In this document: positions 4,183 to 26,203 of the stretch, piece after piece
How positions within the stretch are numbered: position 1 is the first letter of the stretch
Layout of the letters: each line of letters starts with the position of its first letter
Translations under genes and position numbers: made by a program
Origin: Bryobacteraceae bacterium
GTDB taxonomy: Bacteria > Acidobacteriota > Terriglobia > Bryobacterales > Bryobacteraceae
Direction of reading: 5' to 3'
DNA: 64,000 bases
Assembly: GCA_019748195.1 (NCBI GenBank)
Contig: JAIEPW010000043.1
Location: 1 to 64,000 of the forward strand
Notes under the pieces: model-generated
Database searches by the model: none
Told to the model about the DNA's origin: nothing
What the model saw: the letters and a program-made list of their open reading frames with translations, nothing else

Positions 4183-6030
4183 ATGAACCTCTGGCTAATC
4201 CCAACTCTTCCTCTGATCGGCGCGGCCGTCAACGGGCTCTTCGGCCGGCGCATGCCCAGGATGGCGATCAACGCCGTCGCGGTGCTCAGCGTCGTCGCTT
4301 CCTTTCTGCTGGCCCTGAACGTCTTCAACAACCTGGGCGACCAGCCGATTGTCGAGCGCTACTTCACCTGGATCGCCTCCGGCGCGCTCACCATACCAGT
4401 GGAGTTCGCCGTCGACCGGCTGACCATGGTGATGCTCCTCATCGTTACCGGCATCGGATCGCTGATTCACGTGTACGCCGTCGGCTACATGGCCCACGAG
4501 GGAGGCTATTACCGCTTTTTCAGCTACCTGAACCTGTTCATGTTCTTCATGCTGGTGCTGGTGCTGGCCAACAACTACCTGCTGCTGTTCGTGGGCTGGG
4601 AAGGCGTGGGCCTTTGCAGCTATCTGTTGATCGGCTTCTATTTCCTGGAGAACTGGGCCACCAGCGCTGGCAACAAGGCGTTCATCGTCAACCGTATCGG
4701 CGACTTCGGCTTCATGCTCGCCATGCTGCTGATGTTCAACCAGTTCGGATCGCTGGATATCCCTGTCGTGCTCGAAGGCGCCAAGGCGCTCCCGGTGGAG
4801 CACTCCGCCGGGATGCTTACCGCGATCGGCCTGCTGCTGCTGGTGGGCGCGGCCGGTAAGTCGGCGCAGATCCCGCTGTACGTCTGGCTTCCGGACGCCA
4901 TGGCCGGCCCCACGCCCGTTTCCGCCCTGATCCACGCCGCCACCATGGTGACCGCCGGCGTCTACGTGGTGGCCCGCTCTTCCGCGATCTTTACCCACGC
5001 CCCCATCGCCATGGACACGGTGGCGATCATCGGCCTGGCCACGGCCGTGATGGCCGCGCTGATCGGCGTCCTGCAGAACGACATCAAGAAGGTGTTCGCT
5101 TATTCCACCGTTTCACAGCTTGGATACATGTTCCTGGCCCTGGGCGTGGGCGCGTTCTCGGCGGGCATCTACCACGTCATGACTCATGCCTTCTTCAAGG
5201 CGCTGCTGTTCCTCGGCGCCGGCAGCGTGATCCATGCCCTCGAAGGCGAACAGGACATCCGCAACATGGGCGGCCTGCGGTCGAAGATTCCGATCACGTT
5301 CGTGACGCTGATGGCCGCCGGGTTGGCGATCGCCGGATTTCCGTACACCTCCGGCTACTTTTCGAAGGATGAAATTCTGCTGGCCGCGCACCACCATTCG
5401 CCGTGGATGTTCTGGGTGGGCGTTTTCACCGCCGGCCTGACGGCGTTCTACGTCTTCCGCTGCCTCTTGCTGACCTTCTTCGGCGAGTATCGGGGTCACG
5501 CGCACCACCCGCCGCACGAGTCGCCGCCGGTGATGTGGATCCCGCTGGCGATTCTCGCCGTGCTCAGCCTCGGTGGCGGGTTTATCGCGATTCCGCATTA
5601 CCTCGAGCCGGTTCTCGGACACGCCGGCCAGGCCCACGATCCCACTCTGGTCATCATCGCGACCTCGGCCGGGCTGATCGGCATCGCGATCGCCGCGTGG
5701 ATGTACCTGATCGCGCCCGGCGTGCCGGACGCGATCGCCCGCACCTTCAAGGGCCTTTACAACTTCGTCTACAACAAGTTCTATGTGGACGAGGCCTACA
5801 ACGCCGCGGTGATTCAGCCGGTAATCGAAGGCTCGCGCATCTTCCTCTGGCGGGGCGTGGACGCCGGCCTGATCGACGGCATCGTCAACGGAGTGGGTAA
5901 ACGGTCCCGCGGCCTCGGCGGGATTCTCCGGCTCGCGCAATCCGGCAACATCCGCAATTACGCGGCATGGGTGGTGATGGGCAGCATCCTGGTCATCGTA
6001 TTCCTCGGCTTCTCGGGGGGCGCCAAGTGA
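4183..6030 (+). CDS. nuoL: NADH-quinone oxidoreductase subunit L
   Basis: Distal antiporter-like subunit of complex I (615 residues, many helices) that pumps protons. It has the Mrp/NQO signature blocks: [16 protein letters not shown] with the conserved glutamate, the lysine-bearing [30 protein letters not shown], and [15 protein letters not shown]. The C-terminus carries the long lateral-helix region typical of NuoL rather than NuoM or NuoN. Its TGA overlaps a GTG start for nuoM (GTGA at 6027-6030), which indicates translational coupling. Confidence 0.96.
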
Positions 6031-21778: not shown

Positions 21779-22396
21779 TCAGGAAAGGAGCGACCGAAGC
21801 TCGGCTACGACAGCCTTCAGCTCCGCTACTTCGGCTTCGAGCGCGGCCACCCGATCCGCCAGACCCGCCGTCCCGCCAGCCGGGCGAGCGTCTTCCACGG
21901 GCATCGCCGGCTCCCCCGCGATCAGGTGCGCCCAGCGGGCTTCCTTCATCCCCGGCGGCACCGGCATGCGGATGGCCAGGCCCTTTTCCGCCATTCCACG
22001 CAGGCAGCTCTCGACATCTTCCAGGTCCGAAAACGCATGCATGCGTTCCGCACGGCTTCGCAACTCACCAGGCGTCTGCGGTCCGCGAAGCATCAGCACG
22101 CAGAGGGTCGCGAGCTCGCGGGGTGACAGGTTGAGCTTCTCGCCGATCCGGTGCGACCACTTTTCCACGCGGTGTCCAGCGCCCGACAGGCGCGACACCC
22201 ATCCCTTATCTTTCAAGCTGTGAAGAGCCTGCTCCACGGCGCCTTCCTCGAAGGCGACCACCGGGTCACGGTTCGACTTCTGGTTGCACGCCGCCAGCAG
22301 CGCGTTCACCGTCATCGGGTAATACTCCGGTGTCGTCAGGTCCTTCTCCAGCAAAGCCCCGAGCACGCGCACCTCCACCGGGTGCAACGGATCCAC
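21779..22396 (-). CDS. DUF480 (YceH-like) winged-helix protein
   Basis: A 205-residue protein of the YceH/DUF480 family. Tandem winged-helix-like modules cover about residues 1-170 (EVRVLGALLEKDLTTPEYYP at the start, LSPRELATLCVLMLRGPQTPGELR in the middle). A C-terminal coiled coil follows (about 178-205, heptads of Ala/Leu/Val/Glu). Function in the family is unknown, with DNA binding suggested by the fold. The start is a GTG that directly follows the TAA of the propeller gene at 22397 (TAAGTG), so the two are coupled. A decayed copy of its first 42 codons lies at 23921-24039. Confidence 0.88.
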   Translation of the reverse strand: MDPLHPVEVRVLGALLEKDLTTPEYYPMTVNALLAACNQKSNRDPVVAFEEGAVEQALHSLKDKGWVSRLSGAGHRVEKWSHRIGEKLNLSPRELATLCVLMLRGPQTPGELRSRAERMHAFSDLEDVESCLRGMAEKGLAIRMPVPPGMKEARWAHLIAGEPAMPVEDARPAGGTAGLADRVAALEAEVAELKAVVAELRSLLS

Positions 22397-23695
22397 TTAC
22401 TTCTTCTCCGAGATGCAGAACAGCGTGTTTTGGCCGCGCAGGTAAATTTCGCCGTCCGCGATCGCGGGGCTGGCGACGAAAAACTGATCCGCCAGCGTAT
22501 TGGTGGCGAGCACTTCATACTGCTCGCCCATCTTCAGCACGATCACGTCTCCTTCCTCGCTTGCCAGGTACAGCTTGCCGTTCGCGCCGACCGGCGAAGC
22601 CTTGAAGTTGTAGGGCTTGGGCAGCCGCTGCTGGTGATAGTACGGCTTGCCGGTCCTGGCATCGAAACACGAGATCATGCCGTTGTCGGTGAGGAAGTAC
22701 AGCTTGCCCTGATGCAGCACCGGCGAGGGCGTGTAGGAGTTGCCCCGCTGATTCGTCCAAGCCACGGCGTCGGTTCCGCTCAAATCACCCTCGCCGCCGA
22801 GCTTGATCGCCAGCAGATTCGGGTCGCGGAAACCGCTCATGACGATCACCAGGTCCTCGTGCTTCACCGGCGCCGGAATCACATTCAGGCCCAACCCCTT
22901 CACTTCCCACACCGGCTTGCCGCTCGCGAAATCGTAGGCGATCGTCTTGCGCGTTCCCGGCACGATCACCTGCTTCCTGCCTTGATGCTGGATCACCAGG
23001 GGCGGCGCCCAATTGCTGACTTCATTGCGCGTCTGCCGCCATAGCTCCTTGCCGCTCGACTTGTCCAGCGCCACCAGGAAGCCGTCCGCCTCATGATCGA
23101 AATTCAGCAGCAGCGTGTTCTCATGCAGGACCGGAGCGGTGCCTTCGCCGAAGGAGTTTCGCATCTTCATCCGGATTCCCAGGTCCTTCTCCCACAGCTT
23201 CTTGCCCTTCAGGTCGTAGGCGTACACGCCCCTGGACCCAAAGAACGCGATCAGCACCTTGCCGTCCGTAACCGGCGAGTTCGAGGCGAAGCTCCCGTAC
23301 TTAGGGTGATAGCCTTCGTGCGGCTTCACCGTCAACGCCACGTTCTCCCACTGCTTTTTTCCCGTCTTGCGATCGAGCGCCATTACGAGCAACTGCTGTT
23401 CCGGCTGCTCCACCGCGGCGCCGCCCGGACCGCGGCCGCTTGCCAGGTTCTGCGCCCCGTTTACCGCGGTGGTCAGGAAGATCTGATCGCCCCAAATCAC
23501 CGGGGACGAAAACCCGCGGCCCGGGATACTCGCCTTCCACTTGATGTTCTGCGTGTCGCTCCACTGCAGGGGGGCGTCGCCGCGAGCCATGCCGTCGTCG
23601 GCGGGACCTCGCCACCGCGGCCAGTCATCGGCGCTAAGCACGCTACAAACACACAAGGTCCAGAGGGTGATGGCTTTCATGGGATCTTTTCGCAT
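22397..23695 (-). CDS. Secreted PQQ-like beta-propeller protein (copy 1)
   Basis: A 432-residue exported protein. The signal peptide begins at MKAITLWTLCVCSVL, so the second in-frame ATG (23680) may be the true start. The mature part consists of PQQ-type propeller blades with repeated AxDxxTGKxxWE-like motifs (DRKTGKKQWEN, DKSSGKELWRQ, DARTGKPYYHQ). Opening DWPRWRGP is typical of acidobacterial and planctomycete PQQ-repeat proteins. There are no heme motifs and no evidence for a bound quinone, so an enzymatic role is not implied. It is nearly the same protein as the one at 24040-25341, and DUF480 is coupled behind it. Confidence 0.88.
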   Translation of the reverse strand: MRKDPMKAITLWTLCVCSVLSADDWPRWRGPADDGMARGDAPLQWSDTQNIKWKASIPGRGFSSPVIWGDQIFLTTAVNGAQNLASGRGPGGAAVEQPEQQLLVMALDRKTGKKQWENVALTVKPHEGYHPKYGSFASNSPVTDGKVLIAFFGSRGVYAYDLKGKKLWEKDLGIRMKMRNSFGEGTAPVLHENTLLLNFDHEADGFLVALDKSSGKELWRQTRNEVSNWAPPLVIQHQGRKQVIVPGTRKTIAYDFASGKPVWEVKGLGLNVIPAPVKHEDLVIVMSGFRDPNLLAIKLGGEGDLSGTDAVAWTNQRGNSYTPSPVLHQGKLYFLTDNGMISCFDARTGKPYYHQQRLPKPYNFKASPVGANGKLYLASEEGDVIVLKMGEQYEVLATNTLADQFFVASPAIADGEIYLRGQNTLFCISEKK

Positions 23696-23777
23696 GATAC
23701 GACACCGCCGCCCTGTTTTTCCGTCGAACCTTCCGTAACTTCGCGGCCGGATGGCCCGCGCGTCTCCATGAGGTCGA
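23696..23777. promoter_or_regulatory. Duplicated divergent intergenic region, copy 1
   Basis: This spacer aligns along its length with 25342-25423 (shared blocks ACACCGCCG, TTTTCCGTC and CGTCTCCA). The conservation suggests a shared ancestral promoter region for the propeller gene on one side and the DUF4097-like gene on the other. In this copy the rightward gene is dead. Confidence 0.6.
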
Positions 23778-23924
23778 ATTGAGAATCACCGCCCCGCGGA
23801 CTGCCTTGCCTGTTCCGGCCGACTAGTCGACGAGGCGCGAAACCGGCACCTTGAACGGCAGGGTCACCTTCGATTTCCCGGTTCAGGTGCATGGCGTTAT
23901 CACCGAACGCCCGAGGTTGAGATT
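23778..23924 (+). pseudogene. Relic of a DUF4097-like gene
   Basis: The start context of the intact gene at 25424 is recognisable, but a base inserted in the ATG destroys it (GAATTGAG against GAATGATC). Most of the gene is deleted. From about 23819 the sequence again matches the intact gene's 3' part (GCGAAACCGGCACC...TTGAACGGC). Its reading NGRVTFDFPVQVHG corresponds to NGKINVDFPVQVQG near the intact C-terminus. The last ~25 codons are missing and the sequence runs straight into the DUF480 relic. Confidence 0.8.
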
Positions 23925-24039
23925 CGACTTGTGGTTGCACGGCCCACGCCAGCGCCTTCACGCTCATCGGGCAATACTCAGGTCCTTTTTGGGGACAGTG
24001 CCCGAGCACCCCCGCCTCCACCCGGTGCAGTGGCTTCAG
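23921..24039 (-). pseudogene. Relic of the DUF480 gene N-terminus
   Basis: Read on the minus strand this gives VEAGVLGHCPQK then PEYCPMSVKALAWA, matching VEVRVLGALLEK and PEYYPMTVNALLAA of the intact DUF480 protein. The start codon has decayed from GTG to CTG immediately after the propeller stop, an internal 8-12 base deletion is present, and everything beyond about codon 42 is gone. It is a non-functional remnant of the second copy. Confidence 0.85.
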
Positions 24040-25341
24040 TTACTTCTTTTCCGAGATACAGAAGAGCGTGTTCTGGCCCCGCAGATAGATCTCGCCGTCA
24101 GCGATCGCCGGGCTGGCGACAAAGAACTGATCGGTCAGGGTGTTTGTCGCGAGCACTTCATACCTCTCGCCCATCTTCAGCACGATCACGTCACCTTCCT
24201 CGCTCGCCAGGTAGAGCTTGCCGTTTGCACCCACCGGCGATGCTTTGAAATTGTACGGCTTGGGCAGCCGCTGCTGGTGATAATAGGGCCTTCCGGTCGC
24301 GGCGTCGAAGCACGAAATCATGCCGCTGTCGGTCAGAATGTACAGCTTGCCTTGATGTAGCACTGGCGAGGGCGTAGCGGAATTGCCGCGCTGGTTGGTC
24401 CACACCACCGCATCCGTTCCCGTAAGGTCGCCTTCCCGGCCAAGTCTGACCGCCAGCAGGTTGGGCTCGCCAAACCCGCTCATAACGAAAACCATATCCT
24501 CGTGTTTTACTGGAGCTGGGATGATGCTCCAACCGAGACCCTTCACCTCCCAGACCGGCTTGCCCGTGACGAAGTCATAAGCGATCGTCTTTCCTGCTCC
24601 GGGCACGATCATTTGCTTCTTGCCCTGATGCTGGATGACCAGCGGCGGCGCCCAACTGCTGATCTCATTCCGCGTTTGCCGCCACAGCTCCTTCCCACTG
24701 GTTTTGTCGAGCGCGACCAGCAGGCCCTCCGCCTGGTGATCGAAGTTCAGCAGCAGCGTGTTCTCATGAAGCACCGGGGCCGTGCCTTCCCCGAACGCGT
24801 TGCGCATCTTCATCCGGATGCCGAGATCCTTTTCCCAGAGCTTCTTGCCCTTCAAGTCATATGCGTAAACCCCACGTGAGCCGAAGAACGCGATCAGCAC
24901 CTTGCCATCGGTTACCGGCGAGTTGGACGCGAAGCTCCCGTACTTGGGGTGATAGCCTTCATGCGGCTTCACCGTCAGCGCCACCTGCTGCCATTGCGTC
25001 TTCCCGGTATTGCGATCCAGGGCCATCACGAGCAACTGCTGCTCGGGCTGTTCCACCGCCCCGCCGCCCGGACCCCGACTGTTCTGCGGATTCTGCAGGC
25101 CATCGACCGCGGTCGTCAGGAATATCTGATCCCCCCAGACCACTGGGGACGAGAATCCGCGCCCCGGCACGGCGGCCGTCCACTTGACGTTCTGCGTGTC
25201 GCTCCAATTGGTCGGGGCGTCGCCCGGCGCCATGCCGTCGTCCGCCGGACCACGCCAACGCGGCCAGTTGTCGGCTCCTAGAACGCTACAAACACACAAA
25301 GTCCAGAGTGTGATCGCTTTCAATGAATCTCCTTGCATCAT
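24040..25341 (-). CDS. Secreted PQQ-like beta-propeller protein (copy 2)
   Basis: Paralogue of the protein at 22397-23695, of the same length (433 residues) and with the same blade motifs. The substitutions look conservative (DDWPRWRGP versus DNWPRWRGP at the mature N-terminus). The ATG of copy 1 corresponds here to TTG (LKAITLWTLC). Either that TTG or the upstream ATG at 25341 may start translation. Both copies keep full reading frames, which implies continued selection on each. Role unknown; likely periplasmic. Confidence 0.87.
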   Translation of the reverse strand: MMQGDSLKAITLWTLCVCSVLGADNWPRWRGPADDGMAPGDAPTNWSDTQNVKWTAAVPGRGFSSPVVWGDQIFLTTAVDGLQNPQNSRGPGGGAVEQPEQQLLVMALDRNTGKTQWQQVALTVKPHEGYHPKYGSFASNSPVTDGKVLIAFFGSRGVYAYDLKGKKLWEKDLGIRMKMRNAFGEGTAPVLHENTLLLNFDHQAEGLLVALDKTSGKELWRQTRNEISSWAPPLVIQHQGKKQMIVPGAGKTIAYDFVTGKPVWEVKGLGWSIIPAPVKHEDMVFVMSGFGEPNLLAVRLGREGDLTGTDAVVWTNQRGNSATPSPVLHQGKLYILTDSGMISCFDAATGRPYYHQQRLPKPYNFKASPVGANGKLYLASEEGDVIVLKMGERYEVLATNTLTDQFFVASPAIADGEIYLRGQNTLFCISEKK

Positions 25342-25423
25342 CTACAACACCGCCGTCGGACTTTTCCGTCAAAGTCTACGTAACTTGACGGCTGATCGGC
25401 CGTATCGTCTCCAGGAGGATCGA
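25342..25423. promoter_or_regulatory. Duplicated divergent intergenic region, copy 2, with ribosome site
   Basis: Counterpart of 23696-23777. It holds a strong AGGAGG (25413-25418) five bases before the ATG of the DUF4097-like gene. In copy 1 the matching position reads CATGAGG, so the site is weakened there. Confidence 0.65.
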
Positions 25424-26203
25424 ATGATCAAGACTGCCCCACTGCTGCTGGCCTTCGCCGGATTGGCTTTTGCCCAGGACAAGACCATGTCGTGCAATGA
25501 CCGGAACTGGAACGGCGACCGCAAACAGTTTTGCGAGATCCGGGAACAGAACATCCCGTACTCGGGCCGCCTTTCGGTGGATGCCGGCCGGAATGGCGGA
25601 ATCACCGTGAAGGGATGGAACCAGTCCGGCGTCCTGGTGCGCGCAAGGGTGGAAGCCTGGGGAGACACCGAAGCCGACGCCCGATCGATGGTGAATCAGA
25701 CACGGCTGGACCTGTCCGCCGGAATGGTCCGCGCCCAGGGTCCGGAGACCCGCGCCCGGGAGTCCTGGAGCGTCAGCTTCGAGATTTTCGTGCCGAACCG
25801 CGCCGACCTGAATCTGACCGCCCAAAACGGCGGAATTGGGATCTCGGATGTCACCGGCCGCATCGAGTTTGACACCGTCAACGGCGGCGTTACTCTACGG
25901 CGTCTCGGGGGCGATGTAAAAGGCGAGACCCGCAACGGCGGGCTGGATGTGGAGCTTGCCGGATCCCGGTGGGAAGGCCAGCAACTCGATGTCACGACGG
26001 CAAACGGCGGCGTGAAGATGGCCATCCCGGCCAACTATTCGGCCAGGCTCGAAACCGGCACAGTCAACGGCAAAATCAACGTCGATTTTCCCGTGCAGGT
26101 GCAGGGCGACATCAGCCGGCGCCTTTCGTTGAATCTTGGTTCCGGCGGTCCGCTGGTGCGCGCCATTACAACCAACGGCGGCGTCAAGATTCAGAAGATC
26201 TAG
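25424..26203 (+). CDS. Secreted DUF4097-like beta-strand repeat protein
   Basis: A 259-residue exported protein (signal peptide 1-17, ending AFA-Q). The middle and C-terminal parts are repeated short strands with NGG turns (QNGGIGI, VNGGVTL, RNGGLDVEL, ANGGVKM, TNGGVKI), the pattern of DUF4097 putative adhesin / beta-solenoid proteins. Two cysteines near residues 26 and 38 may form a disulfide. I chose the ATG at 25424 for its AGGAGG and signal peptide. A strong terminator follows at 26245. It is divergent from the propeller gene. The molecular role is unknown. Confidence 0.8.
   Translation: MIKTAPLLLAFAGLAFAQDKTMSCNDRNWNGDRKQFCEIREQNIPYSGRLSVDAGRNGGITVKGWNQSGVLVRARVEAWGDTEADARSMVNQTRLDLSAGMVRAQGPETRARESWSVSFEIFVPNRADLNLTAQNGGIGISDVTGRIEFDTVNGGVTLRRLGGDVKGETRNGGLDVELAGSRWEGQQLDVTTANGGVKMAIPANYSARLETGTVNGKINVDFPVQVQGDISRRLSLNLGSGGPLVRAITTNGGVKIQKI

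Follow-up and report, generated by a model that had tools for sequence, protein, structure and literature searches.

Gene content and layout of the locus

The window analysed here (the whole stretch of 64,000 nucleotides) sits in contig C148 (144,124 bases), part of a genome that totals 5.83 Mb over 154 contigs. Two propeller genes lie at the locus between an intact DUF480 gene and an intact, divergently oriented DUF4097 gene, together with two copies of a divergent spacer and, between the propellers, fragments of both outer genes fused at a novel joint (Table 1). The DUF480 gene is the sole match at E 1e-10 across this genome, and its left neighbour was assigned by Pfam to the DUF4953/DUF5117 metzincins. 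At window positions 22394-22399 the GTG start of DUF480 follows immediately on the propeller 1 stop codon, so that DUF480 may be transcribed from the propeller message.

Table 1. Features of the duplicated locus, in window coordinates.
Feature	Position	Strand	Characteristics
DUF480 (YceH-type), intact	21779-22396	-	PF04337, 193.3 bits (cut-off 25)
Propeller 1, 432 aa, slowly changing	22397-23695	-	PF13360 (PQQ_2)
Spacer copy 1, divergent, upstream	23696-23779	no strand	aligns to 25342-25425
DUF4097 fragment	~23780-23920	+	~35-nt weak 5' remnant, ~569-bp gap, codons 202 to ~236, in-frame TAG
Novel joint	23918-23926		DUF4097 (~26132) fused to DUF480 (~22270); best breakpoint fit
DUF480 fragment	~23921-24039	-	first ~42 codons; 10-nt deletion, two 1-nt insertions
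Propeller 2, 433 aa, faster changing	24040-25341	-	PQQ_2; N272S and Y322A, both in columns that are otherwise invariant
Spacer copy 2, divergent	25342-25423	no strand	AAC-N16-CGT upstream of DUF4097
DUF4097 (toastrack), intact	25424-26203	+	PF13349, weak: 25.3 bits (cut-off 22.9)

Both propellers carry the Pfam PQQ_2 domain, and the fold predicted for propeller 1 (a model of mean pLDDT 76 built from six sequences) is BamB-like, its closest matches in the PDB being BamB structures (3prw, E 7.2e-19, TM 0.63 by query length). They differ from BamB proper in scoring 59.0 and 55.9 bits against TIGR03300, far under the equivalog cut-off of 285.2, and the 50 fold matches listed are 15-21% identical to propeller 1. 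The propeller family is expanded in this genome, with 35 propeller-like matches, several of which may belong to a single gene; besides the two of the window, ten more reach E <= 1e-40.

Tandem duplication and fused remnants of the outer genes

A segment comprising DUF480, propeller, spacer and DUF4097 has been duplicated in tandem, as the sequence-only reading had proposed. At block scale, a direct repeat of 85% identity pairs 22358-22657 with 24001-24300 and another of 75% pairs 23815-23920 with 26027-26132. The propeller genes are identical at 1065 of 1316 columns of a local alignment (87% for the proteins), and a quick tree of 53 rows groups them as sisters (SH-aLRT 100). The spacer (~84 bp, 23696-23779 against 25342-25425) matches at 60 of 85 columns (score 89, z 10.9), above all of 500 shuffles (maximum 39), and so better than the random identity that had been named beforehand as a refutation. 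The homology thus spans genes and spacer alike, with order and orientation preserved and the copies contiguous, and the spacer and both fragments are duplicated in register with the propellers, at scores far above shuffles for spacer and fragments. The interval first proposed (22270-26203) does hold the duplication, although its start falls inside the DUF480 gene. Chance resemblance, or the independent acquisition of two propeller genes, might be entertained given how numerous propeller-like stretches are in this genome, but it is refuted by the duplication in register of the spacer and both fragments and by the sister relationship of the copies, and we regard it as practically dismissed.

The two relics are real. 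The DUF4097 fragment (23815-23905 against 26027-26118) is identical to the intact gene at 72 of 92 columns with a score of 82, the maximum of 100 shuffles being 31, and the DUF480 fragment (23923-24029 against 22272-22386) at 87 of 118 columns with a score of 89 (maximum of 29 in 100 shuffles). A whole-genome search that used the protein of the intact DUF4097 gene as query recovered the former independently, at 23800-23946 (E 4.2e-7, one TAG inside). Its first 35 nt (23780-23814) align only weakly, and taken alone they show no significant likeness to DUF4097 (score 16, under the shuffle maximum of 20). According to a two-piece alignment, the sequence equivalent to 25456-26024 (~569 bp) is absent within this fragment, which is also missing the last codons of the gene. 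The best-fitting junction connects DUF4097 at ~26132 with DUF480 at ~22270, in good agreement with the position near 23921 deduced earlier. A 5-bp word common to both sides of this junction was dropped as a sign of junction homology, since 88% of shuffles also share one.

Fragment changes were polarised against 29 DUF480 and 31 DUF4097 orthologues. At codon positions 1 and 2 (150 columns), 21 changes fall on the fragment side and 2 on the intact side, with 7 that could not be assigned, while at position 3 (73 columns) the corresponding figures are 9, 4 and 10. The excess of 21 over 2 is what dead copies would show. The extra copies of the outer genes have decayed and their remnants are fused at a single joint. 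This is the part of the proposed reciprocal loss that stands, namely that the fragments decayed and not their partners.

The spacers also differ in a putative promoter. The pattern AAC-N15-17-CGT, similar to promoters of ECF sigma factors, precedes 15 of 31 DUF4097 genes, the intact gene of the window counted (shuffle mean 2.1, maximum 8), and it is not present in spacer copy 1 (23696-23779). The first pattern tried matched 7 of 32 (in shuffles, 2.4 on average and 7 at most) and two stricter ones 5 of 31 and 7 of 31 (shuffle maximum 3 each). All four patterns were chosen after seeing the sequences, and the enrichment and the absence from spacer copy 1 are for this reason only suggestive.

Later loss or truncation at birth

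The synonymous comparison of the two propellers, suggested at the outset as a check, gave a dS of about 1 (1.06, bootstrap 0.83-1.42), with dN 0.077 and dN/dS 0.073; 91 of 194 4-fold sites differ, 70 of the 91 by transversion. The value is uncertain because methods differ (LWL85 0.91, ML 2.0). The K2P distances of fragments and spacer (0.26, 0.31, and 0.35) are mutually consistent and all lie under the propeller dS. Neutral decay since the propeller split predicts ~57 (48-68) fragment-side changes over the 150 columns of positions 1 and 2, against 21 assigned and 28 at most (none of 4000 draws gave 21 or fewer, and P is ~0.0003 for 28 or fewer), in a clock that takes the synonymous rate as the neutral rate and covers only ~225 bp of fragment. 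If the least diverged propeller windows (dS 0.62-0.66) are used instead, ~38 changes are expected, close to the 28 or fewer seen. Third positions of the fragments differ at 23 of 73, compared to 0.41 in the propellers (P 0.06).

The fragments have thus changed too little for the propeller dS, which leans to a later loss of extra outer genes that were once whole, a reading to which we give about an even chance. The segment would have been duplicated in tandem with the extra outer genes remaining whole through much of the period that followed, and these would have been lost later, one deletion making the joint. In Salmonella, young pseudogenes are reportedly cleared quickly (PMC2916853), which speaks for a recent death of the remnants as well. 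Later loss needs, however, one deletion beyond a duplication with internal breakpoints, and the 23 of 73 third positions are somewhat too few for long function of the extra outer genes. On the former existence of complete copies, the clock therefore leans in favour (28 or fewer of 150 seen, ~57 expected) and the count of events against.

Less probable, yet a serious contender, is a truncation at birth, in which one ~3.86-kb duplication (~22270 to ~26132) had its breakpoints inside DUF480 and DUF4097. The joint would be the duplication junction itself, DUF480 would never have been whole twice, there would be no reciprocal loss of whole genes, and the ~569-bp internal deletion would have come later, in an already shortened DUF4097 copy. 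No complete extra copy is needed here, since such a duplication abuts the end of DUF4097 on the body of DUF480. It takes the fewest events and yields a joint of the form observed. Among the 20 of 21 repeat families listed, none places a sizeable copy of the outer flanks between the propellers, and the proportions of 30/150 at positions 1 and 2 and 23/73 at position 3 are about the ratio for a fragment unconstrained from the start. Nonetheless, the amount of change is roughly half or less of what the propeller dS leads one to expect, and the junction homology is no better than chance.

The discrepancy between fragments and propellers could also arise from the propeller side, if the block duplication were younger and recombination with a diverged homologue had overwritten one propeller, whole or in part, which would give the propellers a greater apparent age than the fragments. 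We consider this improbable. The agreement among fragments and spacer at a divergence lower than the propeller dS would fit, as would the uneven synonymous change, top or nearly so in the windows with changed invariant residues. But the copies are closest relatives with full SH-aLRT support, no donor was seen, and homologous recombination is normally inefficient between genes that differ by ~19% in DNA. Gene conversion as the source of the low fragment divergence was likewise judged unlikely, because the longer propeller genes should homogenise first. Over propeller codons 252-324, synonymous change is saturated or highest, in windows that include residues 272 and 322; these codons are possibly a recombined segment.

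Propeller divergence and the origin of the gene order

Both propellers are under purifying selection on average (dN/dS 0.073), and they differ at 57 of 432 residues. Their evolution has been asymmetric, with end branches of 0.017 for propeller 1 and 0.15 for propeller 2 (quick tree, 53 rows). Relative-rate counts of propeller 2 to propeller 1 changes were 21:7 with L160 as the outgroup, 24:4 against a ten-outgroup consensus and 16:5 against the consensus of all 46 related sequences. Propeller 2 is the more changed with every one of the ten outgroups (range 22:7 to 20:12), weaker asymmetries being those with L013 (20:12), L167 (19:11), and L184 (16:8), and six of the ten give a chi-square above 3.84. 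Among 67 columns invariant in the 46 related propellers (five of 51 having been left out as too short), propeller 2 departs at two (N272S and Y322A) and propeller 1 at none. In a leave-one-out comparison, 10 of the 46 sequences also differ at one to three columns that the others keep constant, so that the two losses are suggestive, the more so for a short branch. The propeller 1 model places both residues in loops of consecutive repeats, with a short strand five or six residues further on. In PQQ-type propellers, loops of this kind line the ligand face.

That dosage was kept only for the propeller, as the sequence-only reading also had it, is not borne out, given the asymmetric change of propeller 2 and its loss of two residues invariant in 46 relatives; the near-identical products free of divergence that one associates with dosage are not what this pair shows. 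Propeller 2 was probably kept for a shifted function instead. A more specific scenario appears rather unlikely to us: a block duplicated and functional for most of a long history, a single deletion fusing the remains of the outer genes, and a propeller 2 gaining a new ligand site through changes at two residues, placed in corresponding loops of adjacent blades.

The arrangement was sought in 237 genomes of the family, in which the genome of the window is the only one of its genus. Counting this genome, DUF480 is present in 202 of the 237 (E 1e-10), a close DUF4097 in 74 (E 1e-40) and a close propeller in 57 (E 1e-105). No single-copy arrangement of the three genes was found in the relatives, a set with no second genome of the genus, so the check on relatives proposed earlier came back empty. 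When the best 29 of the 201 relatives with a DUF480 match were opened at that locus, DUF480 and DUF4097 were divergent neighbours with no propeller between them in four, all of genus g25, with a gap of ~56-137 bp between aligned ends and with spacers that by eye look like the DUF4097 side of the window's spacer. DUF480 and DUF4097 are absent beside all 53 propeller loci opened elsewhere, up to 1.5 kb on each side, and likewise from wider stretches around propellers (30 and 7, overlapping those 53). The three genes are thus not a conserved block, and the idea of an old three-gene order fails on the propeller-free pairs of g25 and on the propeller loci that have neither neighbour. From these four genomes of one genus, the simplest reading is that a propeller was probably inserted between a divergent DUF480/DUF4097 pair before the duplication. 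Alternatively, g25 may have lost the propeller instead of never having had it. Pointing the other way from an insertion is genome G031, where DUF480 (C15, 106419-107024, +) adjoins a distant propeller paralogue (107032-108330, -, 39% identical), although the two are convergent.

Other loci show partial resemblances. In genome G001 (C74, locus L113), a distant DUF4097 (36%) is located close to a gene related to the window's metzincin gene, the left neighbour of DUF480. A related propeller is tandemly duplicated in another genome (L182, G246:C146:2809-4101 and 4470-5486), as two adjacent genes of the same strand with 77% identity across 337 residues, but this was a separate event, each of them being 57-59% identical to the window's copies.

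Partial gene duplicates are described as frequent in C. elegans and Drosophila and rare (7%) in yeast (PMC3449122). The locus shares with partial-gene tandem duplications the direct order and orientation, the novel joint and the incomplete end genes, and differs in being bacterial and in having fragments that are decayed yet readable. The event is of an ordinary kind, by general processes that are well known, with unusually readable leftovers. As a bacterial case it is a clear one, because the debris left by a tandem duplication can still be read and a clock on the relics allows truncation at birth to be weighed against later loss, and it points to a propeller paralogue that may perhaps have an altered function.
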